64,000 nt of DNA from Prauserella salsuginis. Its GTDB lineage: Bacteria > Actinomycetota > Actinomycetes > Mycobacteriales > Pseudonocardiaceae. The number at the start of each line of letters is the position of its first letter. Within the stretch, counting starts at the first letter, position 1. Shown here in pieces: positions 1 to 13,149 of this stretch. Made by a program: the position numbers and the translations under genes. Location: positions 186,001 to 250,000 of the forward strand of contig NZ_JANBBF010000011.1 in the NCBI RefSeq assembly GCF_024648885.1. Reading direction: 5' to 3'. A model generated the notes under the pieces. That model ran no database searches. It saw only the letters and a list, made by a program, of their open reading frames with translations, and was not told the origin of the DNA.

Positions 1-2298
1 AGCAACCTGGTCAGGGCCTTCGGCCTCAAGTACGCGCCCAGAGCGGCGAGCGGCAAGGTCGTCACTCTCTACCCGGTCGACGATCACCAACTGACGACGT
101 GTCTCGAAGACCTGGACGCCGAACTCGCAGGGAACACCGGCCCGTACATCCTCAGCGACCTGCGGTTCTGCAGTGGGCCGCTCTACGTCCGCTACGGCGG
201 TTTCGCGAAACGCTTCTGCGTGACCGACGAGGGCGAGCGGGTACTGGCGATCGAGCGGCCGGACGGAACACTCGTACCCGACGAGCGGAAGCCGGTGTTC
301 ACGGTTCCGGACTGGGTGTCGGTGCCCGACGTGCTCCGGCCGAGTCTGGAACGGCGCAACGCGACCGGCGCCACCCTGGATTACCGCGTCGTCGAGGCGC
401 TGCACTTCTCCAACGGCGGCGGGGTGTATGTGGCCAGGCGTAACACCGACGACACGGAGATCGTGCTCAAGGAGGCGCGCCCGCACGCGGGCCTGAGCGA
501 CGCCGACACCGATGCCGTCGGCCGGATGGACCACGAGATCTGGGCGTTGCGGCGGCTCGCCGGTATCGACGGCATTCCCGCGGTCCACGAGGTGACCACC
601 GTGTGGGAGCACCAGTTCGTGGCGATGGACCGGGTGCCCGGCATGACGCTGCAGCAATGGCTCGCGCGGCACTATCCGTTGATCGGCGCGGCAGGCGGGG
701 AGGCCGAACGTGCCGCCTACGTGCAGCGGGCCGAGCGCATTCACGCCAACGTGAAACGCCTGATCGAACGGATCCACGAACGCGGCGTTGTGTTCGCCGA
801 TCTCCATCCCGCCAACATCATCGTCGACGAGAACGACGAGGTGGGGCTCGTCGACTTCGAGGCGGCGTTCGAGGCGGGCGCGGGCCGGACGCAGCACATG
901 GGGCACGCAGGCTTCACGTCGGCCACGGCCCTCGACGAGGACATCGACCGCAACGCGCTCGCGATCCTCCGGCTGTGGTTCTACCTGCCGCTGACGAGCG
1001 TGCTCGCGATCGCGCCCGACAAGCTGGACGCGCTGGTCGAGGTCGCCGCGGAGCTGTTCGACCTGCCGGCCGATTTCGCGACATCGATCACCGCCGCGGC
1101 GAAACGCGCCCCGGCGTCGCCGGCCTCGCCGGTGTCCGCGTTGCCGCGGGGCACGCCGGAGCCCGCCGACCGTCGTTGGCGCGACTCCGTCGCCGCCGCG
1201 ATCACGGTCAGCGCGGAACCGGACCGGACCGACCGGCTCTTTCCCGGCGACACCGAGCAGTTCGTCACGGGCGGTGCCGGCTTCGCCCACGGTGCGGCCG
1301 GCGTCCTGTGGTCGCTGCAGGTGACGGGCTACGACGTCGACGAGGAACATCGGCGCTGGCTGCTCGAACGTGCCGACGAACCCGTGGCGGCGCCGGGGTT
1401 CCTGGACGGGGCGCACGGGATCGCGTACGTGCTCGACGAGTTCGGTCACCGGGACGCGGCGGCCGCGCTGATCGACCGTTCGGCCGAGGCAGTCGACCAG
1501 ATGCGTGATGTGAGCTACATGAGCGGCCTGGCCGGGGTGGGGCTGCACTTGCTTCACCTGCACGGGAAGTATGGCTCGACCGGAAGCGGCCGCAGCGGCG
1601 ACCGGCTGTCCGACGCCCTCCGCATCGCGCTGCGGCTGGAGGAGGCGGTGGCCGACGGGCGGGCACACGGCGTCGACAGGCCACCGGGCCGGCTCGGCCG
1701 TGCGGCGGATTCGGGAACCCACGGCGGTCTGATCCGAGGCTGGTCCGGACCCGCGCTGTTCTTTCTGCGGCTGTTCGAGGCGACCGGTGACAAGGGCTGG
1801 CTGGACACGGCGATCGCGGCGGTGCATCGGGATCTGCGGCTGTGCGTCGCCGACGAGGCCGGCAGCTGGCAGGTCGACGGCGGATTCCGGCGCCTGCCGT
1901 ATCTGGACGTCGGTTCGGCGGGAATCGCCGTCGTAGTGGACGAGATTCTCCGGCACGTCGACGACGACGAACTCGAAGCTGCGGTGGCACCGCTCGTCTC
2001 GAGCTGTCACAGCGACTTCGTCATGGACGCAAATCTCTTTCACGGACGCGCCGGACTTATGGGCGTAAATGCTCGACTCGACCGCGGTCGTCCGGGTACA
2101 ATTGATTCCAGGCAGACGGAAAGCCACCTCGAACGTTTGAGTTGGCACGCGCTTGCCTATCGTGGACATGTTTCTTTTCCCGGTGACGGATGTTCCCGCT
2201 TGTCCATGGATTTCGCAACTGGTAATGCGGGCGTCTTGGTTGCCGCGGCTTCCGTGGTGGATGAGAGTGTTCCGCTTCTTCCCTTCCTGTCCGTATGA
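1..2298 (+). CDS. Class III lanthipeptide synthetase LanKC (5' truncated by window)
   Basis: Trifunctional RiPP enzyme: it phosphorylates Ser/Thr of the precursor, eliminates phosphate and cyclises Cys onto dehydroalanine. The frame is open from base 1; 765 residues are visible and the family is about 850-900, so roughly 100 N-terminal residues are missing. Visible order: end of the lyase region (GPYILSDLRF near bases 148-177), a kinase domain (Lys in EIVLKEA, catalytic loop FADLHPAN, DFE in place of DFG, about bases 450-900), then a LanC-like domain with Gly-rich repeats (GGAGFAHGAAG, GLAGVGLHL, LPYLDVGSAG, LFHGRAGL). The zinc ligands (Cys, Cys-His-Gly) of class I, II and IV cyclases are absent, which indicates class III. 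The last 300 bases are visibly less GC-rich than the rest. The two precursor genes begin 64 bases downstream. Confidence 0.93.
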   Translation, partial: SNLVRAFGLKYAPRAASGKVVTLYPVDDHQLTTCLEDLDAELAGNTGPYILSDLRFCSGPLYVRYGGFAKRFCVTDEGERVLAIERPDGTLVPDERKPVFTVPDWVSVPDVLRPSLERRNATGATLDYRVVEALHFSNGGGVYVARRNTDDTEIVLKEARPHAGLSDADTDAVGRMDHEIWALRRLAGIDGIPAVHEVTTVWEHQFVAMDRVPGMTLQQWLARHYPLIGAAGGEAERAAYVQRAERIHANVKRLIERIHERGVVFADLHPANIIVDENDEVGLVDFEAAFEAGAGRTQHMGHAGFTSATALDEDIDRNALAILRLWFYLPLTSVLAIAPDKLDALVEVAAELFDLPADFATSITAAAKRAPASPASPVSALPRGTPEPADRRWRDSVAAAITVSAEPDRTDRLFPGDTEQFVTGGAGFAHGAAGVLWSLQVTGYDVDEEHRRWLLERADEPVAAPGFLDGAHGIAYVLDEFGHRDAAAALIDRSAEAVDQMRDVSYMSGLAGVGLHLLHLHGKYGSTGSGRSGDRLSDALRIALRLEEAVADGRAHGVDRPPGRLGRAADSGTHGGLIRGWSGPALFFLRLFEATGDKGWLDTAIAAVHRDLRLCVADEAGSWQVDGGFRRLPYLDVGSAGIAVVVDEILRHVDDDELEAAVAPLVSSCHSDFVMDANLFHGRAGLMGVNARLDRGRPGTIDSRQTESHLERLSWHALAYRGHVSFPGDGCSRLSMDFATGNAGVLVAAASVVDESVPLLPFLSV

Positions 2299-2361
2299 GC
2301 ATCGGGCCACCAGTGGGTTCGATGATTCGCGCGGCTGGGAAATATCAGAAAGGTGATTAGC

Positions 2362-2445
2362 ATGGCTGTTCTGGACCTTCAGGCTCTGGAGACCTCGGCC
2401 GCGGAGGCGCAGCTTCCGGGTAGCACCGTCAGCAACAACTGCTGA
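2362..2445 (+). CDS. Class III lanthipeptide precursor, copy 1
   Basis: 27-residue peptide. The leader carries VLDLQALE, the LxLQ helix that class III synthetases recognise. The core ends GSTVSNNC, giving Ser21-x2-Ser24-x2-Cys27 with Cys as the last residue. Ser/Ser/Cys triads form labionin in class III products; when the Cys is C-terminal and decarboxylated they form avionin, as in lipolanthines. The ribosome site GAAAGGTG lies about 6 bases before ATG. It follows the synthetase by 64 bases and is duplicated 153 bases downstream. The ring type is inferred. Confidence 0.9.
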   Translation: MAVLDLQALETSAAEAQLPGSTVSNNC

Positions 2446-2514
2446 CGAATTTCTCCAGTAGATCCGCCCGCACTGGGCGGGAAACTTGTCGGAAATACTA
2501 GAAAGGTGATTAGC

Positions 2515-2598
2515 ATGGCTGTTCTGGACCTTCAGGCTCTGGAGACCTCGGCTGCCGAGGCGCAGCTTCCGGGTAGCACCGTCAGCAACAACTGCTGA
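2515..2598 (+). CDS. Class III lanthipeptide precursor, copy 2
   Basis: Encodes exactly the same 27-residue peptide as copy 1. The two genes differ at only two third-codon positions (codons 13 and 14, both Ala), and the identity extends from the shared ribosome site GAAAGGTGATTAGC to about 18 bases past the stop. This looks like a recent tandem duplication kept at protein level, probably a dosage effect. Two strong hairpins follow at 2771-2850, separating the precursors from the exporter. Confidence 0.9.
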   Translation: MAVLDLQALETSAAEAQLPGSTVSNNC

Positions 2599-2770
2599 CG
2601 AGCTTCTCCAGTGGTGCACTTCGACGCGAAGTGCTCTGTGGGAAGTAGGCATCGACACGGTGACCGGTGTTGCCGATCTGCGCTCGCACGGCCCGGAGAA
2701 TCCGCTGCCGCTTGCGCAGCCTCCGGCCGGACGCACAGCTCGGCCCGTATCGACCGTGACTGATGTCGCC

Positions 2771-2850
2771 GTTGCCGGGGAGGCCTCGACCTCCCCGGCA
2801 ACGGGTCCTTTCCGGTGTGGACATCCGACCGATGCGGGCGTCCACACCGG
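2771..2850 (+). terminator. Two tandem hairpins after the precursor genes
   Basis: Hairpin 1: 13-bp perfect stem, 2771-2783 with 2790-2802, 6-base loop, followed by GGGTCCTTTCC. Hairpin 2: 11-bp perfect stem, 2812-2822 with 2840-2850. They lie in the gap between precursor copy 2 and the exporter. A partial terminator or 3' stabiliser here would keep precursor mRNA above the level of the downstream genes; that role is inferred. Confidence 0.7.
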
Positions 2851-2891
2851 ACCCTTGTGCCCGCGCGGGTGGTGGAAGTCGGAGGAGTGGC

Positions 2892-4337
2892 TTGACTCAG
2901 GCGACCTCGTCGTCGGGCGGCTCGGCTCGTACGGGCCGACACCGACCGGCGGACGGGCGACGGCCGGTCTCCCACATCCTTGCGGACTTCTCCGTCACCG
3001 GCCACCGTATCGACGCCAGGGGAGCGCGCAGGGGTGTCGAGTACGGCGGCCGGCACCGCACACCACATCGGCGCGGCGGGTACATCGCGATGCAGATCGC
3101 CTTCGCGATCAACCTGGCGGGCAACGCCATCGGCGCCGCCGGGTTCCCGATCTTCGTGCTCGACAGCACCGGCGACCTCGCGCTCACCGGATGGATCGTC
3201 ACGGTGTCGATGGTCGGCTCGATCATCACGGGCGTCGTCGCCGGTCCGCTCATCGACCGCGCGGGGCTACGCGTCTCCTGGATCTTCTCCATCGTCGTCG
3301 GGACCACCCTGACCGCACTCACGTACGTGCTGTTCGTCTCAGGCGTGCTCGCTCCCTGGCTGCTGCTCGGTATCTCGTTCCTGCGCAACTCGGCCGACGA
3401 ACCCGGGCGGGTCGCCACGTTCGGGCTGCTCCCGACCCTGGCCAAACAGGCCGGTCACTCGCTCGAGAGCGCCAACGCCACGCTACGGTCGATGAACGCC
3501 CTCGCGACGATCTTCGGTCCCATGGTCGCCGGTGGCATCGTCGCGGCGTTCGGCAGCCCGTGGGTGCTCGTCGTCGACGCGGCAGCGGGCGGCCTCGCGG
3601 CGGTGATCGTCATCGTCTTCCTGGCGGTTCCGGGAAGCGCGGCGGCGGAGAAGGGACGAACCGCCGCCGATCTGCGCACTTATCGGCAGCAGTTCGTCGT
3701 GGCCGTGCGGTTCTTCCGCTACGACAAACTGCTGTTGTCGCTGATCATCACGACCACGATCCTGGCGACCCTCGACAGCGCCGTGGGAACCATCGGGCTG
3801 ACCGGCTACGCCTCGGACATCCTCGACGATGCGGCGTGGTACGGCGGTCTGGTCAGCGCCTTCGGCATCGGTTCGCTCATCGGGACGATCACCTACGGTG
3901 TCATCGGCGCACGGCTGCCGCGACGAGCCACGTATTTGGCGGCATATCTCGGTTTCGCGGCCATGCTGTTGCTGCTGACCGTCCAGGTTCACGTCGCGGC
4001 GGCGCTGGCCATCATGGTCGTCGGCGGTATTATGATCAGCCCGATCGACCTGTTGTACCTGCAAGTCCTGCAGGAACGCGTACCCGAGCGCATCTTCGGC
4101 TCGGTGACGAGCATCGTCACGACGATCGTGTCCGGTCCGGGCCCGGTCGGTGTCGCGATGCTCACCTGGCTTCTCGGAGCGGCGGGTACGCGAACCACGT
4201 TCGTGGTAATTGGATGTTGCTATCTGCTGATAGCCGTCGTGCTGTTCTTCGTCCGACCGTTGCACCGGCTGAAACGGCCACGGTTCGACGACGCACAGCC
4301 GACACAGCCGATCATGATCGGAACACTGACACGATAG
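2892..4337 (+). CDS. MFS transporter, probable lanthipeptide exporter
   Basis: Major facilitator permease with about 12 hydrophobic segments, beginning with a helix at MQIAFAINLAGNAIG (base 3090). It contains the inter-helix segment GPLIDRAGLR and ends in a charged tail. Its position directly after the precursors suggests export of the product or self-protection. Start: TTG 2892 sits 6 bases after a strong GGAGG (2881-2885) and gives 481 residues with a 66-residue basic cytoplasmic N-terminus. ATG 3090 would give a conventional MFS without that extension. Many class III clusters export through ABC transporters, so an MFS is noteworthy. The substrate is not proven by sequence. Confidence 0.82.
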   Translation: MTQATSSSGGSARTGRHRPADGRRPVSHILADFSVTGHRIDARGARRGVEYGGRHRTPHRRGGYIAMQIAFAINLAGNAIGAAGFPIFVLDSTGDLALTGWIVTVSMVGSIITGVVAGPLIDRAGLRVSWIFSIVVGTTLTALTYVLFVSGVLAPWLLLGISFLRNSADEPGRVATFGLLPTLAKQAGHSLESANATLRSMNALATIFGPMVAGGIVAAFGSPWVLVVDAAAGGLAAVIVIVFLAVPGSAAAEKGRTAADLRTYRQQFVVAVRFFRYDKLLLSLIITTTILATLDSAVGTIGLTGYASDILDDAAWYGGLVSAFGIGSLIGTITYGVIGARLPRRATYLAAYLGFAAMLLLLTVQVHVAAALAIMVVGGIMISPIDLLYLQVLQERVPERIFGSVTSIVTTIVSGPGPVGVAMLTWLLGAAGTRTTFVVIGCCYLLIAVVLFFVRPLHRLKRPRFDDAQPTQPIMIGTLTR

Positions 4338-4380
4338 ATTGCCGCGTACAGGGCGGTCATCGAACGTTAATGGAGGATGT

Positions 4381-4605
4381 ATGAGTGCCAACGTGAAGTC
4401 GTTGTTCATCGGTGCGGGAATGCTGATCGTGGGCCTGGTGCTCAGGTTCACCACCGAAGGCGTCGAGACGCCGGTGGTCACATTGACGAAGGTCGGCCTC
4501 GTGCTGGCCATTCTCGGCGCCGCCGAGCTGGTCATCACCGGTGCGTGGATGCTGTTCGGCTCCAAGGACAAAGACAAGGAGAAGGATCAGGTCGAGGGCC
4601 ACTGA
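4381..4605 (+). CDS. Small two-helix membrane protein (DUF5708-like)
   Basis: 74 residues with two predicted membrane helices (about residues 6-21 and 36-58), a short polar loop between them and a highly charged C-terminal tail (KDKDKEKDQ). ATG 4381 follows GGAGG by 4-5 bases. It resembles the actinobacterial DUF5708 family in layout (GVExPVVxLTKVGxVL), but this is recognition by eye. It lies 43 bases after the exporter and on the same strand, so it is probably cotranscribed. Function unknown; it could be an accessory or immunity membrane protein. Confidence 0.75.
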   Translation: MSANVKSLFIGAGMLIVGLVLRFTTEGVETPVVTLTKVGLVLAILGAAELVITGAWMLFGSKDKDKEKDQVEGH

Positions 4606-4662
4606 CGCGGCCGGCCGCGGCCGTGCGAATCGGACACATCGAGCATCGGTAGGGCCGTAAGT

Positions 4663-5568
4663 ATGGGACTCGACCCCGAACTGCCGGGCAGGAACGCCAC
4701 CTGGGCGTTCCTGCCGGACCGCATCGAGATCGTCTATTCCAGCAGCAGCGGGATTCCGCGGTTGTTGCGGCGTATCGGACAGCGGTCGGTGCCGCTCGCG
4801 GCGATCGCGCGGGCCGCAGTCATGCACGGCGACGGTGCTCCGGTGTTGTCCCTGCGCATGCATCCGGGAGCGGACCCGCACACCGAGGTCGCCGCGGGAC
4901 AGCTCGCCGAGGACTCGGAGCTGTACCGCCTCGAACTCGACCGTGGCCAGTCCGACCTGGCGGAGTACTACGCCGAGCACATCCGGCTGCTGACCGAGCA
5001 GCACGCCACCACGTGGTCCGAATCGGACGGATTCCTGCTCGGTGCGGAGCCGCCGCCGCTGCATCTGCGGTGCTTCGACGCCGATGCCCATCTCGACGCC
5101 GACAACCTGCACCTGCGGTGGAACGCCGATGCGACCCCGGAGAAGCGCGCCGGTGGCGACCGCACGTATCCGCTGGCGGATCTGCGGGATGTCGAGTGGG
5201 TGCGGCCGGGTGCGTTCAGCGGACAGCTGTCGGTACGGGTGAAGGGTGAATCCGGGGACCGGCCGCCCGCTGAGGAGGATCCCACGACCGTTCTTTTCGG
5301 TTTGGGTTGTGGCACCGTCGCCGACTCTCTACCATTCGGTGCATCACTTCTTGCCGGCATGCGGCGCCATGCGGCGCCCGCGTCGTCCGGAGCGTTGAGC
5401 GGCGGTCGGAGGACCGCCCTCGATGCCGGACCGCAGGAATCCCGCCTGGCGACATCGGTCGACGAGATCGCGAACGCCATTCGTGAGCTGGGATCGCTCA
5501 AGGAAGCCGGTCTGCTCGACGACGCCGAGTTCCAGCGCAAGAAGCAGGAGTTACTGGACCGGTTGTGA
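4663..5568 (+). CDS. DUF4429-type protein with C-terminal SHOCT motif
   Basis: 301 residues without membrane segments. Two similar beta-rich modules are visible, one beginning ATWAFLPDRIEIVY and one around LHLRCFDADAHLDADNLHLRWN, as in actinobacterial DUF4429 proteins. The last 35 residues (IRELGSLKEAGLLDDAEFQRKKQELLDRL region) form a SHOCT motif, a short C-terminal domain found in many bacterial proteins of unknown role. The gene lies in the same-strand run between the small membrane protein and the acyltransferase, with little spacing. Its function is unknown; membership of the RiPP operon is inferred from spacing only. Confidence 0.8.
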   Translation: MGLDPELPGRNATWAFLPDRIEIVYSSSSGIPRLLRRIGQRSVPLAAIARAAVMHGDGAPVLSLRMHPGADPHTEVAAGQLAEDSELYRLELDRGQSDLAEYYAEHIRLLTEQHATTWSESDGFLLGAEPPPLHLRCFDADAHLDADNLHLRWNADATPEKRAGGDRTYPLADLRDVEWVRPGAFSGQLSVRVKGESGDRPPAEEDPTTVLFGLGCGTVADSLPFGASLLAGMRRHAAPASSGALSGGRRTALDAGPQESRLATSVDEIANAIRELGSLKEAGLLDDAEFQRKKQELLDRL

Positions 5569-5612
5569 CCGGAGCGCGCCTCCGGAAACGACTATTACTG
5601 GAGGCTGTGTCG

Positions 5613-6560
5613 GTGTCCGACGCGATGTACTTTCCGGGACTCGTCCCGACGAAATTCTCGGCCGTCGAGACGTTTTTGCGTGAGAACGAGTTCGCGCAGA
5701 AACGCATCCGGGTAGCCGACGAGGTGGTCGGCTACCCGGTTCTCGAGGCCTACGAGAAGGCCGACGTCTACGACTGGGAAGTGTTCGAGGTCGGCTTCAT
5801 GGCGCTGACCCTCGCGCTGGCGGACTGGACGACCGCCAATCTCGGACTCCGGCCGGTGGTGTCGGGCGGGCAGAGTTTCGGTGCGCTCGCCGCGGCCGTC
5901 CACACCGGCTCGTTGTCCTATGAGGACGTCCTCACGCTGGTCCAGCGGAGCACCAAGGTCGAGGTCGACTACTTCGAGTCGCAACCGGAACCGCTCGGGT
6001 GCTTCTTCTTCTACCGCATGGATTCGGCTGCGGTGGACGATCTCGTCGCCGAGTTCCGGGCAGCGGGCCGCGACGTGGAGGTGTCGATCTATCTGGACAA
6101 CACGGTGCACGCCGTGTCCGGTCCGATCGCCGACCTGGAAGTGCTGCGCGAGCGCGTGCGCGAGGAAGGCGGGTTCCCGTTCTACCTCATGAACCGCTCG
6201 GAACACTGCTCGTCCGTCGGACCGCTGCGAGCCCGGCTGGAGGAGGAGGTCTACCGCCACTACGCCTGGCAGGCGCCGACCGTGCCGATGCTCTCCGACG
6301 TCACCGGTGAGCTGCTCACCGACGGACACGCCGTCATGACCGATCTCCTCGACGGCTGGGTGACACCGGTCCGCTGGTCGACGGTGGTCGACGGGATGCG
6401 CTCCAGCGGTGCCCGCCGCGTCGTCATCGTCGGCCCCCGGAACATGTTCGCGCGGATCACCAACAACGTGATGCCGACCGCGGTGGTGACCCCCAAGGTC
6501 GCCGACGACTTCGCGACCGACGGTTTCACGATGCCGGCACCGCTGGAGGTGACGGCATGA
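5613..6560 (+). CDS. Stand-alone acyltransferase, malonyl-CoA:ACP transacylase (FabD) family
   Basis: Loads an acyl unit from CoA onto an acyl carrier protein. In the 315-residue product the nucleophile elbow is GGQSFG (Ser88; the usual motif is GHSxG), a basic residue follows at VQRS (Arg113), and the catalytic His is in SEHC (His199). The substrate-pocket region differs enough from housekeeping FabD that the extender unit cannot be read off. Start: GTG 5613 lies 8 bases after GGAGG (5600-5604); GTG 5565, overlapping the previous stop, and ATG 5625 are in-frame alternatives. Its stop overlaps the next start (ATGA), so it is translationally coupled to the ThDP enzyme. No acyl carrier protein gene is visible in the window. 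Confidence 0.85.
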   Translation: MSDAMYFPGLVPTKFSAVETFLRENEFAQKRIRVADEVVGYPVLEAYEKADVYDWEVFEVGFMALTLALADWTTANLGLRPVVSGGQSFGALAAAVHTGSLSYEDVLTLVQRSTKVEVDYFESQPEPLGCFFFYRMDSAAVDDLVAEFRAAGRDVEVSIYLDNTVHAVSGPIADLEVLRERVREEGGFPFYLMNRSEHCSSVGPLRARLEEEVYRHYAWQAPTVPMLSDVTGELLTDGHAVMTDLLDGWVTPVRWSTVVDGMRSSGARRVVIVGPRNMFARITNNVMPTAVVTPKVADDFATDGFTMPAPLEVTA

Positions 6561-8293
6561 CCGGCCGGACGGGTTCGCGATCCGCGACGTACGACGGTGC
6601 CTGGCACGCGGTCGTCGACTTCCTCCGCACCGCGGGAGTCGACGTGATGACCGGCCTGCCGTCCGACGATCTCGCACTCCTCGACGCGTTGGACTCGGAT
6701 TCGCCGCGGCTGGTCGTGTGCCGGGACCAGCGCAACGCGGCGTTCATGGCGACCGGGTACGCGCTGCAGGCAGGGTCGCCGGGAGTGTGTGTGGTCGGCA
6801 AGGGGCCGGCCGCGACCAACGTGATGACCGGGGTGCTCGAGGCCAAGTTCAGTGGAGCGCCGCTGCTCGTGATCGGCACCGGCACCGCGACCGACCGGCG
6901 GAGCGGCACGGCGTTCCAGGAGCTGGACCAGATGTCGGTGCTCGATCCCGTGGTCGCCTGGTCGGAACGGGTCGACAGCGCGGCCCGCTTGGTGCCGGCC
7001 CTCGAGCAGGCGTGGCGCCGCGCGCAAGGCCCGCCGAGTGGCCCGGTGTACCTGGAACTGCCCGAACAGCTGCTGACCGAGCAGATCACCCGCGGCCGGC
7101 CGTGGCAGACCGACATCGAACCGGCCGGCGGGGTGCGATTCGACGACCGCAGCCCGGTGGTGGAGGCCGTGCGTCGCGCGCGGCGGCCGATCCTGCTGGT
7201 CGGTGGCGGAACGCGGCACCGCAATGCCGACGGTGTCGTGGAGCGGTTCGCCGCCGGTCTGGGCGCAGCGGTGTTCAGCACCGCGTCCGGGCGCGGATGC
7301 TTCGACGAGGACGACGAGCGTTTCCTCGGTCTGTCCGGCCTGTACCTGCGGCCGGCGGCGGCACAGTTGTGGCGGGACTCCGACCTCGTGGTGACGCTGG
7401 GCAGCAGGTTGGAGGAGACGGCGACCTTCGGCTGGCCGGACGTCGCGGACATGCCCCCGGTCGTCCAGGTCAATGTCGACGTCGCCGGCTTCTCGGCCGA
7501 ATGGGACGGACATCGGGTGCTGGGCGACGTCGGCGACGTCCTGCGGGAGTGGATCCCCGTACTCGAGGGTGCCGAACGGGACGAGGCGTGGCAGGAGCGG
7601 ATCGCCGAGGCCCGTCGCCGACTGCGCTCGGACGCGGTGGTTCCTGCCGACGGGGAGCCCGCGCCGGGAACGGTGCGGGTCGCTCGGCTGCTGTCGGCTG
7701 TGGACAGTGTCGTCCCGCGTGATCGCATTCTCGTGCAGGAGAACGGACTGCAGGACATGTGGTCCTACATCTATCCGTACTACGCGTGCGCGGCCGAGGG
7801 CGGCTCGATCGTGCCGTCCGAGCAGACGAGCCTCGGCTTCGGCGCCGCGGGCTCGGGCGGCGTGTTCCTGGCAGCGCAGGGAAAGCCTGTCGTCGCGTTC
7901 GTCGGTGACGGCGCTTTCGCGATGGTGCGAGGCGACCTGGCGACCTTCGCGAAGGAACGTCTGGGCGTGCTGTTCGTGGTAATCTGCAACGGCGGATACG
8001 GCTGGTTGCAGTCGCAATTGGGCGGGCACAGGCGCGCCGGTGAGCGGTTCTCGTTCATCGCACCCGGCGCTGCCGACGCACCCGGTGACGTCGCGCGGAA
8101 CTTCGCAGAGGAACGCGACGTCCACCAGGTCGCCGTCACCGACGAGGCCGCGCTCGACGCGGCGTTGACGAAGGCATACGAACGAACCGCAGCCGGTACG
8201 GTTTCCGTTGTCCATGTCGCGGTGGATCTGAGCGACGCTCCTCCGGGCATCTCCGACATCGAAGGTGACTTCACAGCACCGGATCCCGCCTGA
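6557..8293 (+). CDS. ThDP-dependent enzyme, acetolactate-synthase fold, atypical active site
   Basis: 578 residues with the three-domain layout of acetolactate synthase and pyruvate oxidase: Pyr domain (about 15-175), central domain (about 195-335) and PP domain (about 375-560). The diphosphate/metal motif is GDG at 450-452 with Asn478 about 25 residues on. The position that normally holds the catalytic Glu (RHE in the homologue at 28833-30620) reads R56-D57-Q58, so Glu is replaced by Gln. Glyoxylate carboligase is a known family member without this Glu. The gene is coupled by ATGA to the acyltransferase and lies 29 bases before the ketosynthase. Likely decarboxylation or carboligation in making the acyl chain; the substrate is unknown. 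Confidence 0.85.
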   Translation: MTGRTGSRSATYDGAWHAVVDFLRTAGVDVMTGLPSDDLALLDALDSDSPRLVVCRDQRNAAFMATGYALQAGSPGVCVVGKGPAATNVMTGVLEAKFSGAPLLVIGTGTATDRRSGTAFQELDQMSVLDPVVAWSERVDSAARLVPALEQAWRRAQGPPSGPVYLELPEQLLTEQITRGRPWQTDIEPAGGVRFDDRSPVVEAVRRARRPILLVGGGTRHRNADGVVERFAAGLGAAVFSTASGRGCFDEDDERFLGLSGLYLRPAAAQLWRDSDLVVTLGSRLEETATFGWPDVADMPPVVQVNVDVAGFSAEWDGHRVLGDVGDVLREWIPVLEGAERDEAWQERIAEARRRLRSDAVVPADGEPAPGTVRVARLLSAVDSVVPRDRILVQENGLQDMWSYIYPYYACAAEGGSIVPSEQTSLGFGAAGSGGVFLAAQGKPVVAFVGDGAFAMVRGDLATFAKERLGVLFVVICNGGYGWLQSQLGGHRRAGERFSFIAPGAADAPGDVARNFAEERDVHQVAVTDEAALDAALTKAYERTAAGTVSVVHVAVDLSDAPPGISDIEGDFTAPDPA

Positions 8294-8322
8294 ACCGGCA
8301 CCGAGGAACGAAGGGCACCGCG

Positions 8323-9591
8323 ATGCTTGAGGAAATTCGGAAACTTCGCCGGCGAGTGGTCGTCACCGGACACGGCGCGGTCACGCCGCTCGCACCGGAC
8401 GTCGAAGGGACATGGTCGGCGATGCTCGCCGGCCGGTCGGGGGTGCGCCGGGTGCAGTCGCTGGAGGTCGACGACCTGCAGTCGCAGATCGCTGGCGAGG
8501 TGCGGGACTTCGATCCGGACGCCTACATCGCCCGCAACGTCAGCAGGCGGATGGACCTGTATGCGCAGTATGCGCTGTGCGCGGCGATCCAGGCCGTGGA
8601 GTCGTCGAAGCTGACGATCGACGCGCGGTTGGCGCCGCGTGCCGGGGTGCTGATGGGCAGTGGCTACGGTGCCAACCTGTACAACCAGAGTCTGCCGGAC
8701 ATTCTGCGGGAGAAGGGTCCTCGCCGTATCAGTCCGTTCGCGCAGGTGGCCGGTGCGATCGACAACCCGGTGGGCGAGATCAGCATGCAGTTCGGCGTGA
8801 AAGGGCCGACCCGGGCGCTGAGCACCGCGTGTGCGACCGGCAGCGACTCGGTGGGCGAGGCGGCGCGGTGGATCCAGCTCGGCGTCGTCGACGCGGCGAT
8901 CGCGGGCGGTGCGGACAACTGCATCACGCGCATCGATCTCGCGGCCAGCGGCAACGCGAAGGCGCTGTCGACCCGTAACGACGCTCCGCAGCGGGCCTCC
9001 CGCCCGTTCGACGAGGAGCGCGACGGTTTCGTGATGAGTGCGGGTGCGGGCGCGGTCGTGCTGGAAGAGGCCGAACACGCGATGCGACGGGGCGCGCACA
9101 TTCTGGGCGAGGTGGTCGGATACGCGTCGACGTCGGACGCCCACCACTGGACGGCTCCGCATCCCGAGGCGGAAGGCGCGAAGGCCGCGATGCGGGGCGC
9201 GCTCGAGGATGCCGGTATCGCACCGGCCGATGTGGACTACATCAACGCGCACGGCACGAGCACGCCGGTGGGGGACGAACGAGAGGTCGCCGCGATCCGC
9301 GAGGTCTACGGCGAGCACGCGCCGCGTATCCCGGTGAGCTCGACGAAATCCATGACCGGACACATGATCGGCGCGAGCGGTGCGGTCGAGCTGATCGCCT
9401 GCATGCTGGCGATGCGGGACGGCGTGGTGCCGCCGACGATCAACTGCGAGCATCCGCTGGACGAGGAGATGAACTTCGTGCCGACCACGCCGCAGCATCG
9501 CGACACACGGATCGCGATGAGCAACTCGTTCGGCTTCGGCGGCCGGAACGCGGTGCTCGTCGTGCGGCGCTGGGAGGCCGAGGGCGCATGA
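8323..9591 (+). CDS. Beta-ketoacyl-ACP synthase, KAS II (FabF) type
   Basis: Condenses an acyl chain with malonyl-ACP. 422 residues with the full triad: Cys170 in STACATG, His310 in NAHGTSTPVGD and His347 in TKSMTGHMIGASG, plus the C-terminal NSFGFGG loop. This is therefore an active condensing enzyme, not a chain-length factor. ATG 8323 is preceded by GGAACGAAGGG. It overlaps the enoyl reductase start by 4 bases (ATGA). The absence of neighbouring ACP and ketoreductase genes, and its company with a stand-alone acyltransferase, argue for a pathway-specific enzyme, not the housekeeping fab operon. Confidence 0.92.
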   Translation: MLEEIRKLRRRVVVTGHGAVTPLAPDVEGTWSAMLAGRSGVRRVQSLEVDDLQSQIAGEVRDFDPDAYIARNVSRRMDLYAQYALCAAIQAVESSKLTIDARLAPRAGVLMGSGYGANLYNQSLPDILREKGPRRISPFAQVAGAIDNPVGEISMQFGVKGPTRALSTACATGSDSVGEAARWIQLGVVDAAIAGGADNCITRIDLAASGNAKALSTRNDAPQRASRPFDEERDGFVMSAGAGAVVLEEAEHAMRRGAHILGEVVGYASTSDAHHWTAPHPEAEGAKAAMRGALEDAGIAPADVDYINAHGTSTPVGDEREVAAIREVYGEHAPRIPVSSTKSMTGHMIGASGAVELIACMLAMRDGVVPPTINCEHPLDEEMNFVPTTPQHRDTRIAMSNSFGFGGRNAVLVVRRWEAEGA

Positions 9592-10361
9592 ACGCGGACA
9601 CGGGATTGCTGGCGGGCAAGCGGATTCTGATCACCGGTGTGATCACCGAGACCTCGATCGCGTATCAGGTCGCGCGGGTCGCGCAGGAGCAGGGCGCGCA
9701 GGTCGTGCTGACCGGCTACGGCCGGGTCTCGCTCGTGGAACGGATCGCCACGCGGCTGCCGCAGCCCGCGCCGGTCGTCGAGCTGGACGTCACGGACCCG
9801 GCCGATCTCGCCGCGTTGCCCGGCAGGGTGCGTGAGCACGTCGACGGCCTCGACGGAGTGGTCCACTCGGTCGCTTTCGCCCCGGAAGCCTGTTTCGGCG
9901 ACTTCCTGGCGGCGGAATGGAGCGACGTCGCACCGAGCCTGCACGTCTCGGCCTATTCGATGAAGGCCCTCGCCGTGGCGGTGCGGCCGCTGCTGTCGCG
10001 GGGGAGTTCCGTCGTGGGAATGGACTTCGACGCCAGGGTGGCGTGGCCGGACTACGACTGGATGGGCGTGGCGAAGGCCGCGCTGGAGTCGGTGACCAGG
10101 TACCTGGCACGGGAACTCGGACCCTCGGGAGTGCGGGTCAACCTGGTGGCCTCGGGGCCGTTGCGGACCATGGCGGCGAAGTCGATCCCCGGGTTCGCCG
10201 AGCTGGACACCGACTGGGACCGTAAGGCCCCGCTCGGCTGGGACGCCGTCGACGGCACCGGCGTGGCGAAGTCGGTGTGTGCGGTCCTGTCCGATTGGCT
10301 GCCGACCACGACCGGCTCGATGGTGTGGGCCGACGGGGGCGTGCACGCGGTCGGCAGTTGA
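9588..10361 (+). CDS. Enoyl-ACP reductase, InhA/FabI type
   Basis: NADH-dependent reduction of the enoyl-ACP double bond. 257 residues, SDR fold. It begins GLLAGKRILITGVITETSIA, the InhA nucleotide-binding signature, and has the catalytic set Phe147, Tyr156 and Lys163 in the region MDFDARVAWPDYDWMGVAK, matching InhA Phe149/Tyr158/Lys165. It ends with the usual GGVHAVGS-like segment. Translation is coupled to the ketosynthase. In actinomycetes the housekeeping inhA usually sits beside fabG, so this isolated copy looks like a pathway paralogue. It is the last gene of the run; a hairpin follows at 10371. Confidence 0.9.
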   Translation: MNADTGLLAGKRILITGVITETSIAYQVARVAQEQGAQVVLTGYGRVSLVERIATRLPQPAPVVELDVTDPADLAALPGRVREHVDGLDGVVHSVAFAPEACFGDFLAAEWSDVAPSLHVSAYSMKALAVAVRPLLSRGSSVVGMDFDARVAWPDYDWMGVAKAALESVTRYLARELGPSGVRVNLVASGPLRTMAAKSIPGFAELDTDWDRKAPLGWDAVDGTGVAKSVCAVLSDWLPTTTGSMVWADGGVHAVGS

Positions 10362-10389: not shown

Positions 10390-10447
10390 ACTGTCACGCG
10401 CCGCTGACCAGGGCGGATGCCCGTCCGGGTGAGAGCGCGTAAGTTAT

Positions 10448-10464
10448 TCTTGATTCATTCAAGA
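10448..10464. promoter_or_regulatory. Putative FurA operator upstream of furA-katG
   Basis: Perfect inverted repeat TCTTGA-N5-TCAAGA in an AT-rich stretch, 21 bases before the furA start. FurA of mycobacteria and streptomycetes represses its own furA-katG promoter at AT-rich palindromes in this position, so autoregulation released by peroxide is the likely reading. Confidence 0.65.
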
Positions 10465-10485
10465 TTTTGCGGCAGACTGGCCGCC

Positions 10486-10914
10486 GTGCCTACGACCACG
10501 GATCTCGAACAGCTGCTGCGCGGGGCTTCCCTGCGTGTCACCCGTCCGCGGGTGGCGGTGCTGTCCGTGGTGCACGAACATCCCCACGCCGACACCGATT
10601 CCGTCATCGGACACGTGCGTGAGGAACTCGGTGAGGTCTCCCATCAGGCTGTCTACGACGTGCTGCGCGCGTTGACGGCCTCCGGACTCGTCCGGCGTAT
10701 TCAGCCCATGGGTTCCGTCGCGCGGTACGAAACGCGCGTCGGGGACAACCATCACCACGTCGTGTGCCGCTCCTGCGGCCGGATCGCCGACATCGACTGC
10801 GCCGTCGGCGAGGCTCCGTGCCTGGAGGCCTCTGACGACCACGGCTTCACCATCGACGAGGCCGAGATCATCTATTGGGGCGTGTGCCCCGACTGTTCCG
10901 CAGTTAGTTCCTGA
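10486..10914 (+). CDS. furA: FurA, redox-sensing Fur-family repressor
   Basis: 142-residue Fur-family regulator. N-terminal winged helix (LRVTRPRVAVL, then HQAVYDVLRALTASGLVRRI), followed by the metal/redox dimer domain with DNHHHVVCRSCG and a C-terminal CPDC. It closely resembles mycobacterial FurA in the stretch GSVARYETRVGDNHHH. GTG 10486 is chosen because the homology starts there; an upstream in-frame ATG would run through the operator. katG follows by 30 bases. The expected role is to repress furA-katG until peroxide oxidises the cysteines. Confidence 0.92.
   Translation: MPTTTDLEQLLRGASLRVTRPRVAVLSVVHEHPHADTDSVIGHVREELGEVSHQAVYDVLRALTASGLVRRIQPMGSVARYETRVGDNHHHVVCRSCGRIADIDCAVGEAPCLEASDDHGFTIDEAEIIYWGVCPDCSAVSS

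Positions 10915-13149
<2,235 letters not shown>

Follow-up and report, generated by a model that had tools for sequence, protein, structure and literature searches.

A class III lanthipeptide gene cluster of Prauserella salsuginis with a predicted N-acyl chain, an unfamiliar acyl module and no LanD-type gene inside the cluster

The lipolanthines microvionin, nocavionin, nocaviogua and the goadvionins share, in the parts of the published descriptions available here, a class III lanthionine synthetase, a core peptide of the form S-x-x-S-x-x-C, an N-acyl chain made by fatty-acid synthase or polyketide synthase (PKS) genes and an N-acyltransferase of the GNAT family; for microvionin the same sources place a flavin-dependent cysteine decarboxylase, MicD, in the cluster. 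The lipoavitides (Ren et al. 2024, cited in PMC13060382) are, by the title of that paper, likewise ribosomal peptides acylated at the N-terminus by non-modular fatty-acid synthases. The gene cluster described here lies at the left edge of a 64,000-nt stretch (the window; contig NZ_JANBBF010000011.1, positions 186,001 to 250,000) of the 5.64 Mb genome of Prauserella salsuginis (G000). Judged from sequence, it follows the plan of a hybrid between a ribosomally synthesised and post-translationally modified peptide (RiPP) and a fatty acid, contains no LanD-type gene and has an unfamiliar acyl module: a fusion of an adenylation domain with an aldehyde dehydrogenase (A-ALDH), a thiamine diphosphate (ThDP) enzyme and an R2-like oxidase, none of which is named in the lipolanthine descriptions as far as these were available. 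Its product is probably a class III lanthipeptide of about 7-9 residues with a fatty acyl group on the N-terminus. No paper on this cluster family turned up in the literature covered, which did not include Wiebach 2018/2020, Kozakai 2020 and Ren 2024; the family is not presented here as unpublished.

The left edge of the window falls inside the synthetase gene, LanKC, and a further 20 kb was read to its left (L004); upstream coordinates continue the window numbering leftwards, with 0 at base 20000 of L004. The genes that an earlier note on this DNA had recognised in the window were all recovered on the + strand with frames free of internal stops: LanKC, two precursors, an exporter of the major facilitator superfamily (MFS), a DUF5708 and a DUF4429 protein, a discrete acyltransferase (AT), the ThDP enzyme, a ketosynthase (KS) and an enoyl-ACP reductase (ENR). 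Neighbours in the run from AT to ENR share 4-base overlaps or stand 29 bases apart. The N-acyltransferase predicted by the note to lie left of base 1 is indeed there, a GNAT at -976..-311 (L004:19024-19689, + strand) directly before LanKC, with 20 bases between the two genes. Further left, on the - strand, are the genes for the R2-like oxidase (-2689..-1754; L004:17311-18246) and the 925-aa A-ALDH fusion (-5447..-2670; L004:14553-17330). Since both are retained in Prauserella alba, Frankia and Amycolatopsis jejuensis, the cluster is taken to run from about -5447 to 10361, a span of 15.8 kb. The gene order is the same in P. alba, A. jejuensis and Frankia AgB32 (where no ENR was found), and the arrangement is therefore not due to chance.

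LanKC (862 aa, -290..2298, of which the first 97 codons lie left of the window and 1..2298 within it) has the Pfam domains RamC_N, Pkinase and LANC_like, and the 765 aa inside the window score 825 bits on the NCBIfam model lanthi_synth_III (NF038151, cut-off 575). Two precursor genes follow at 2362..2445 and 2515..2598, the second forming a 122-nt direct repeat with the first. Both encode the same 27-aa protein, MAVLDLQALETSAAEAQLPGSTVSNNC, with a core of approximately GSTVSNNC and a score of 26.3 on the NCBIfam class III model NF038154 (cut-off 22). Precursors were surveyed with the leader motif alone as query at 15 loci, namely the 13 cluster loci defined below together with L075 and L078. 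All 35 precursors found, 22 of them distinct and 27-28 aa long, end in S-x-x-S-x-x-C, and a hand count of the last seven residues gave 18 distinct cores. The leader pattern overlooked at least two more copies (L072, L073), which carry the same ending. P. alba DSM 44590 encodes three precursors, all identical. The spacing equals that of the nocaviogua ring residues Avi2, Avi5 and Avi8 in the accessible part of PMC10435860. It is not diagnostic of lipolanthines, because the general class III motif, given as S-(X)2-S-(X)2-5-C in the accessible part of PMC8960859, covers it too. The position of the cysteine as the very last residue of every precursor suggests that the terminus matters chemically.

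With the ThDP enzyme as query, 13 loci were found in the genome collection; four of them (P. alba, Frankia sp. AgB32, Streptomyces iconiensis and A. jejuensis) have LanKC and GNAT, and the other nine lack these in the DNA fetched. The AT matched 11 of 390 genomes of the taxonomic family at E <= 1e-70, the P. alba AT being 94% identical to that of the window. These 11 genomes, with Frankia and S. iconiensis, make up the 13 cluster loci, which represent six genera. LanKC, GNAT and the R2-like, ALDH, AT, MFS and KS genes are each present at 13/13 cluster loci, in several gene arrangements. A flavoprotein of PF13454 is found at ten, ThDP at nine, ENR, DUF5708 (by tblastn) and DUF4429 at eight each, and a ketoreductase at four. 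The adenylation domain is full-length at eight loci, shortened at four and not found at one. GNAT adjoins LanKC at 12 of the 13 loci and stands elsewhere within the cluster in S. iconiensis. In four genomes (g26) the R2, A-ALDH, ThDP, KS, ketoreductase and ENR genes form one divergent run, the ketoreductase being confirmed by Pfam in one of them, and the acyl genes therefore look like a single reductive pathway. The ketoreductase that had been expected left of base 1 is thus an in-cluster gene in these relatives, and none was seen in the Prauserella cluster. The rearranged cluster of S. iconiensis also contains an arginase/agmatinase-family gene (L025:14648-15811) and a second KS-like gene (4262-5569), which may alter the acyl chain of that product. 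LanKC, GNAT and a PF13454-type flavoprotein relative occur at a contig end (L078:559-6449) together with three precursors whose endings are SSVSVDC or SGISSDC; this is a second type of acyl-lanthipeptide locus, the acyl module being absent from the DNA read.

The A-ALDH fusion matches PF00501 at 183 bits and PF00171 at 106 bits. In an alignment with two solved ALDHs the catalytic Cys is kept and the general-base Glu replaced in 17/17 rows, so a thioester or acyl reductase fits better than an acid-forming dehydrogenase, and the fusion is a candidate acid-reducing enzyme giving an aldehyde. The ThDP enzyme (6557..8293) has three TPP domains and shares fold and domains with the group of acetolactate synthase (ALS) and 2-hydroxyacyl-CoA lyase; its nearest relatives by PDB sequence and fold matching are acetohydroxyacid synthases (AHAS) and ALS. 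Acetolactate synthase activates ThDP through a Glu, whereas Gln takes this position here in all 13 rows that cover it in an alignment with AHAS I (the 14th row lacks the stretch). The enzyme stays below the cut-off of every one of the 25 NCBIfam models among the matches listed, the best 25 of 54. The AT (5565..6560) is VinK-like, matching Pfam VinK_C at 31.1 bits (cut-off 27) and, best in the PDB, 5czc/5czd (E 7e-44), which we take to be VinK itself. The KS (8323..9591) is of FabF type with a Cys-His-His triad (TIGR03150, 529 bits, cut-off 494), whereas the acyl group of lipoavitides is reportedly started by a KASIII enzyme. The ENR (9588..10361) is of FabI/InhA type (NF005908, 413.7 bits, cut-off 299). 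KS, AT, ENR, ALDH and R2 retain their key residues in the aligned rows. The R2-like protein (Pfam Ribonuc_red_sm) resembles the R2-like ligand-binding oxidases (R2lox) in sequence and fold, these being its best PDB and fold matches, and its metal ligands, two Glu and two ExxH, are intact in 13/13 rows. It differs in that it shares 16-20% identity with the R2lox structures among the matches listed, scores 70.9 bits on the NCBIfam R2lox model, below the cut-off of 194, and lies in a biosynthetic cluster. Fatty acids are ligands of R2lox proteins (PMC6399176), and one of these proteins is an alkane hydroxylase (PMC10867098).

Parts of the acyl module also occur apart from lanthipeptide genes. A-ALDH and ThDP genes are found without LanKC at L018, L020, L022, L023 and L024. 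Of the 390 genomes in the family, 29 had a match to the R2-like protein at E <= 1e-15, and none of six further R2 loci that were read has a LanKC match. A ThDP gene stands near R2 at three of the six, L090 (with A-ALDH), L092 and L094 (a remote set), and the R2 relatives at L091, L093 and L095 have none of the query genes alongside. The occurrence of ThDP, A-ALDH and R2-like genes without LanKC means that the acyl module is portable; the R2 protein can thus work without the peptide and fits the acyl module better than the peptide. The earlier note's coupling of fatty-acid to lanthipeptide genes accordingly holds for the AT, whose close homologues stand beside LanKC in 11/11 genomes, and fails for the ThDP gene, which pairs with A-ALDH or with R2 at loci without LanKC in the DNA fetched. 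Weaker AT relatives of about 30% identity were found in other settings: at E <= 1e-20, seven of 60 genomes matched, two of them Prauserella and five others, at each of which about 4 kb was read.

At L090:1-10500 and L092:3000-10400 the R2-like and ThDP genes lie near a gene for a pyridoxal-phosphate enzyme (PF00291 in L090, a likeness by eye in L092) with no LanKC match; this is a different product family on the same module. The R2 match in L092 is split over two frames. At L094:1-10500, matches to ALDH, ThDP, AMP-binding, KS and R2-like proteins occur together at 27-34% identity, again with no LanKC match. A-ALDH, ThDP and KS genes stand beside large PKS-like and ACP-like open reading frames in Planobispora takensis (L023:2837-14244) and beside a 2899-aa frame like a nonribosomal peptide synthetase in Prauserella aidingensis (L024:7245-21666), these neighbours being recognised by eye, and the A-ALDH/ThDP/KS module serves other assembly lines too. 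In Kibdelosporangium banguiense (L021:9932-13477) the ThDP match lacks the initial 85 residues, the KS frame is open and the ENR is split over two frames; with no LanKC match, the locus looks like the decayed remnant of such a cluster.

A LanD-type decarboxylase, also expected left of base 1, was not found within the cluster. The profile of PF02441, the family to which MicD presumably belongs, was run against the 13 cluster-bearing genomes in full and matched inside the cluster in none of them. The match closest to a cluster, in G387 (40.5 bits, cut-off 22.7), lies 8 kb past ENR and resembles by eye a small P. salsuginis protein. Two matches each were found in P. salsuginis, P. alba (G006) and A. 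jejuensis, one in a frame of 424-464 aa and one weak. In P. salsuginis the former is CoaBC (Pfam DFP and Flavoprotein) and the latter is the small protein (36.5 bits), encoded between rRNA-methyltransferase-like and rpe-like genes named by eye. The small protein is common to all seven Prauserella genomes, at 83-100% identity in six and 39% in one, and in five of the seven the AT gave no match at E <= 1e-20. It is therefore a general Prauserella gene and was set aside as a candidate for the cluster's decarboxylase. The PF13454 flavin oxidoreductase beside 10 of the 13 clusters was considered as a C-terminal oxidase, but the DNA read at the two Prauserella clusters does not contain it, and so it does not explain this window. 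Its match positions in S. iconiensis lie beyond the 81-kb cluster contig, and P. salsuginis has one weak partial match elsewhere. With no flavin decarboxylase in the cluster, it is not established as a lipolanthine cluster by the definition of that family, though similar otherwise. The label lipolanthine-like thus stands as regards the core spacing, the GNAT and the AT and KS that travel with LanKC at 13 loci, and does not extend to a LanD-type gene or an acyl carrier protein (ACP). The C-terminal cysteine probably does not lose its carboxylate to a dedicated LanD-type enzyme; the ring would then be labionin or lanthionine with a free carboxylate, or be formed via a decarboxylase of another kind.

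A true lipolanthine, in which the cysteine is decarboxylated to give avionin by a flavoprotein whose gene lies outside the cluster, either CoaBC or the small protein of PF02441, is unlikely. It would account for the terminal cysteine of all 35 precursors and for the core spacing shared with nocaviogua (PMC10435860, accessible part), and P. salsuginis has both flavoproteins, as G387 has a PF02441 match beyond its cluster; but the clusters themselves contain no such match, and the small protein is found throughout Prauserella, mostly without the AT. The R2-like oxidase might instead replace LanD and decarboxylate the cysteine oxidatively, making avionin by a new enzyme. Its presence at every cluster locus with intact metal ligands, where no LanD is found, is consistent with this, but the fatty-acid binding and alkane hydroxylation by R2lox proteins named above (PMC6399176 and PMC10867098), the six R2 loci without a LanKC match, three with ThDP and three without any query gene, and L075, which has lanthipeptide genes and no R2 match, make it very unlikely.

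For the acyl chain, the ThDP enzyme could be a 2-oxoarginine decarboxylase-like protein, providing an omega-guanidino fatty acid from 4-guanidinobutyrate as in microvionin. Both microvionin and nocavionin bear a guanidino fatty acid (PMC10373908, accessible part), the model for 5-guanidino-2-oxopentanoate decarboxylase matches the enzyme at 160.8 bits, and the S. iconiensis cluster contains the agmatinase-family gene. This is improbable, however: the cut-off of that model is 500 bits and acetolactate synthase models outscore it, the ALDH domain lacks the general-base Glu, unlike an acid-forming ALDH, and tblastn with the S. iconiensis agmatinase-family protein gave no match above 70 bits in the window, the left flank or the other loci given (L096-L099 not included). 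Duplicate FabF- or FabI-like genes in biosynthetic clusters can be resistance genes, and KS and ENR might accordingly be self-resistance copies of fatty-acid targets and not chain builders. Their place in one run with ketoreductase, ThDP and A-ALDH in the four g26 genomes, and the five cluster loci that keep KS with no ENR match in the DNA read, leave little room for this, and it is regarded as highly improbable.

The reading as a fatty-acylated lanthipeptide is carried by the adjacency of LanKC, precursors and GNAT and by the set of LanKC, GNAT, R2, ALDH, AT and KS common to 13 genomes, together with the uniform ending of the 35 precursors, the single run of acyl genes in the four g26 genomes and the key residues kept in the acyl enzymes. 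Several observations weigh against it. The cluster has no known metabolite. An ACP gene, which had been expected left of base 1, was not found in the cluster in any of the four genomes tested. Ketoreductase and dehydratase were not seen among the families of the scanned Prauserella cluster genes, where host genes could serve, and a complete type II fatty-acid synthase set (ACP, KS, ketoreductase, dehydratase and ENR) was not found together in one cluster. The fold matches of the R2-like protein to R2lox rest on a structure model with a mean predicted local distance difference test score (pLDDT) of 63.8. The closest solved structures to the GNAT (PF13302, 40.1 bits, cut-off 25.4) are acetyltransferases. 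When 394 genomes of the class were searched with the GNAT, eight matched at E <= 1e-25. LanKC is present in P. salsuginis, Frankia, G657 (L075), G452 (L078) and G653 (L080); the 20 kb read in each of G796, G775 and G792 contains no LanKC match, so GNATs of this family are not tied to lanthipeptides. Finally, the four Crossiella-type loci (genus g17, including Crossiella sp. S99.2) lack ThDP and a full adenylation domain and keep the rest, which means that both are not essential there, unless a second locus serves. In Crossiella S99.2 a second ThDP/A-ALDH locus (L022) does lie about 75-95 kb off on the same contig. The adenylation domain is shortened at exactly the four loci without ThDP, suggesting a joint role for ThDP and acid activation.

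A pathway to the acylated lanthipeptide can be proposed. The sequences show which gene families are present, that these stay together across genomes and how the precursors end; the chemical steps, their order and the acyl structure are predictions. LanKC would phosphorylate and eliminate the two core serines and close the rings of S-x-x-S-x-x-C on the C-terminal cysteine, after which a protease encoded outside the cluster would cleave the leader. A-ALDH, the ThDP enzyme and the R2-like oxidase would provide an unusual starter or acyl unit and oxidise it: activation and reduction of an acid would yield an aldehyde, which the ThDP enzyme would join or convert, and the R2-like protein would oxidise a C-H bond. 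The VinK-like AT may transfer the unit to a host acyl carrier protein, the cluster itself having no ACP gene, and KS and ENR may lengthen the chain with host ketoreductase and dehydratase. The GNAT, present at all 13 loci, would couple the chain to the peptide N-terminus, and the product would be exported by the MFS protein.

Between precursors and exporter lies a perfect 15-bp hairpin (2769..2804, + strand), the arms of which are repeated in P. alba. The folding energy of 2755-2815 is -38.8 kcal/mol (z -4.8, 0/200 shuffles as good), and the hairpin is a probable terminator or attenuator. A second inverted repeat just after it (2811-2851, 17-nt arms, 88%), also present in P. alba, possibly contributes to expression control between precursors and exporter. 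The exporter (3090..4337; Pfam MFS_1, 98.4 bits) could be read from 2763 as a longer frame; this start was rejected and 3090 chosen because 2763 adjoins the strong hairpin and the P. alba and A. jejuensis proteins align from 3090. The DUF5708 gene, encoding a small membrane-type protein of 74 aa, was assigned to 4381..4605 (PF18969, 47.5 bits, cut-off 26.9), this frame carrying the match, and not to the overlapping 91-aa frame at 4377-4652. It is followed by a protein with DUF4429 and SHOCT domains (4663..5568; PF14472, 89.9 bits; PF09851, 30.7 bits). To the right of the cluster, at 10417-13149, are a FUR-family regulator (PF01475) and a frame with a peroxidase domain (PF00141, 235 bits). FUR, the only neighbour gene sought at the other loci, has a 98% identical counterpart in P. 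alba and went unmatched at the remaining 11 cluster loci; being kept in P. alba alone, it looks like a neighbour outside the cluster. A FecCD-type permease and a periplasmic binding protein of iron-siderophore-type uptake at -7875..-5854 (L004:12125-14146) are, like the peroxidase gene, also treated as neighbours.

The lipolanthines differ among themselves in activity: microvionin and the goadvionins inhibit Gram-positive bacteria and nocaviogua A and B did not (PMC10435860, accessible part). RiPP/fatty-acid hybrids are few, and the present cluster family adds 22 distinct precursors, 18 cores and a conserved candidate enzyme for acyl attachment. It is also a test case for the formation of avionin-type rings without LanD. 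Tentatively, the clusters may represent a separate lipo-lanthipeptide family, in which the cysteine carboxylate is kept or lost by a non-flavin decarboxylation and the acyl chain is built by a new kind of portable module made up of A-ALDH, Gln-variant ThDP enzyme (forming a C-C bond) and R2lox-like hydroxylase. If so, R2lox-type proteins would gain a defined role in natural-product synthesis. The R2lox-type protein, the Gln-variant ThDP enzyme and the candidate acid-reducing A-ALDH occur in one module of lanthipeptide and other clusters, which makes their chemistry testable in small systems.

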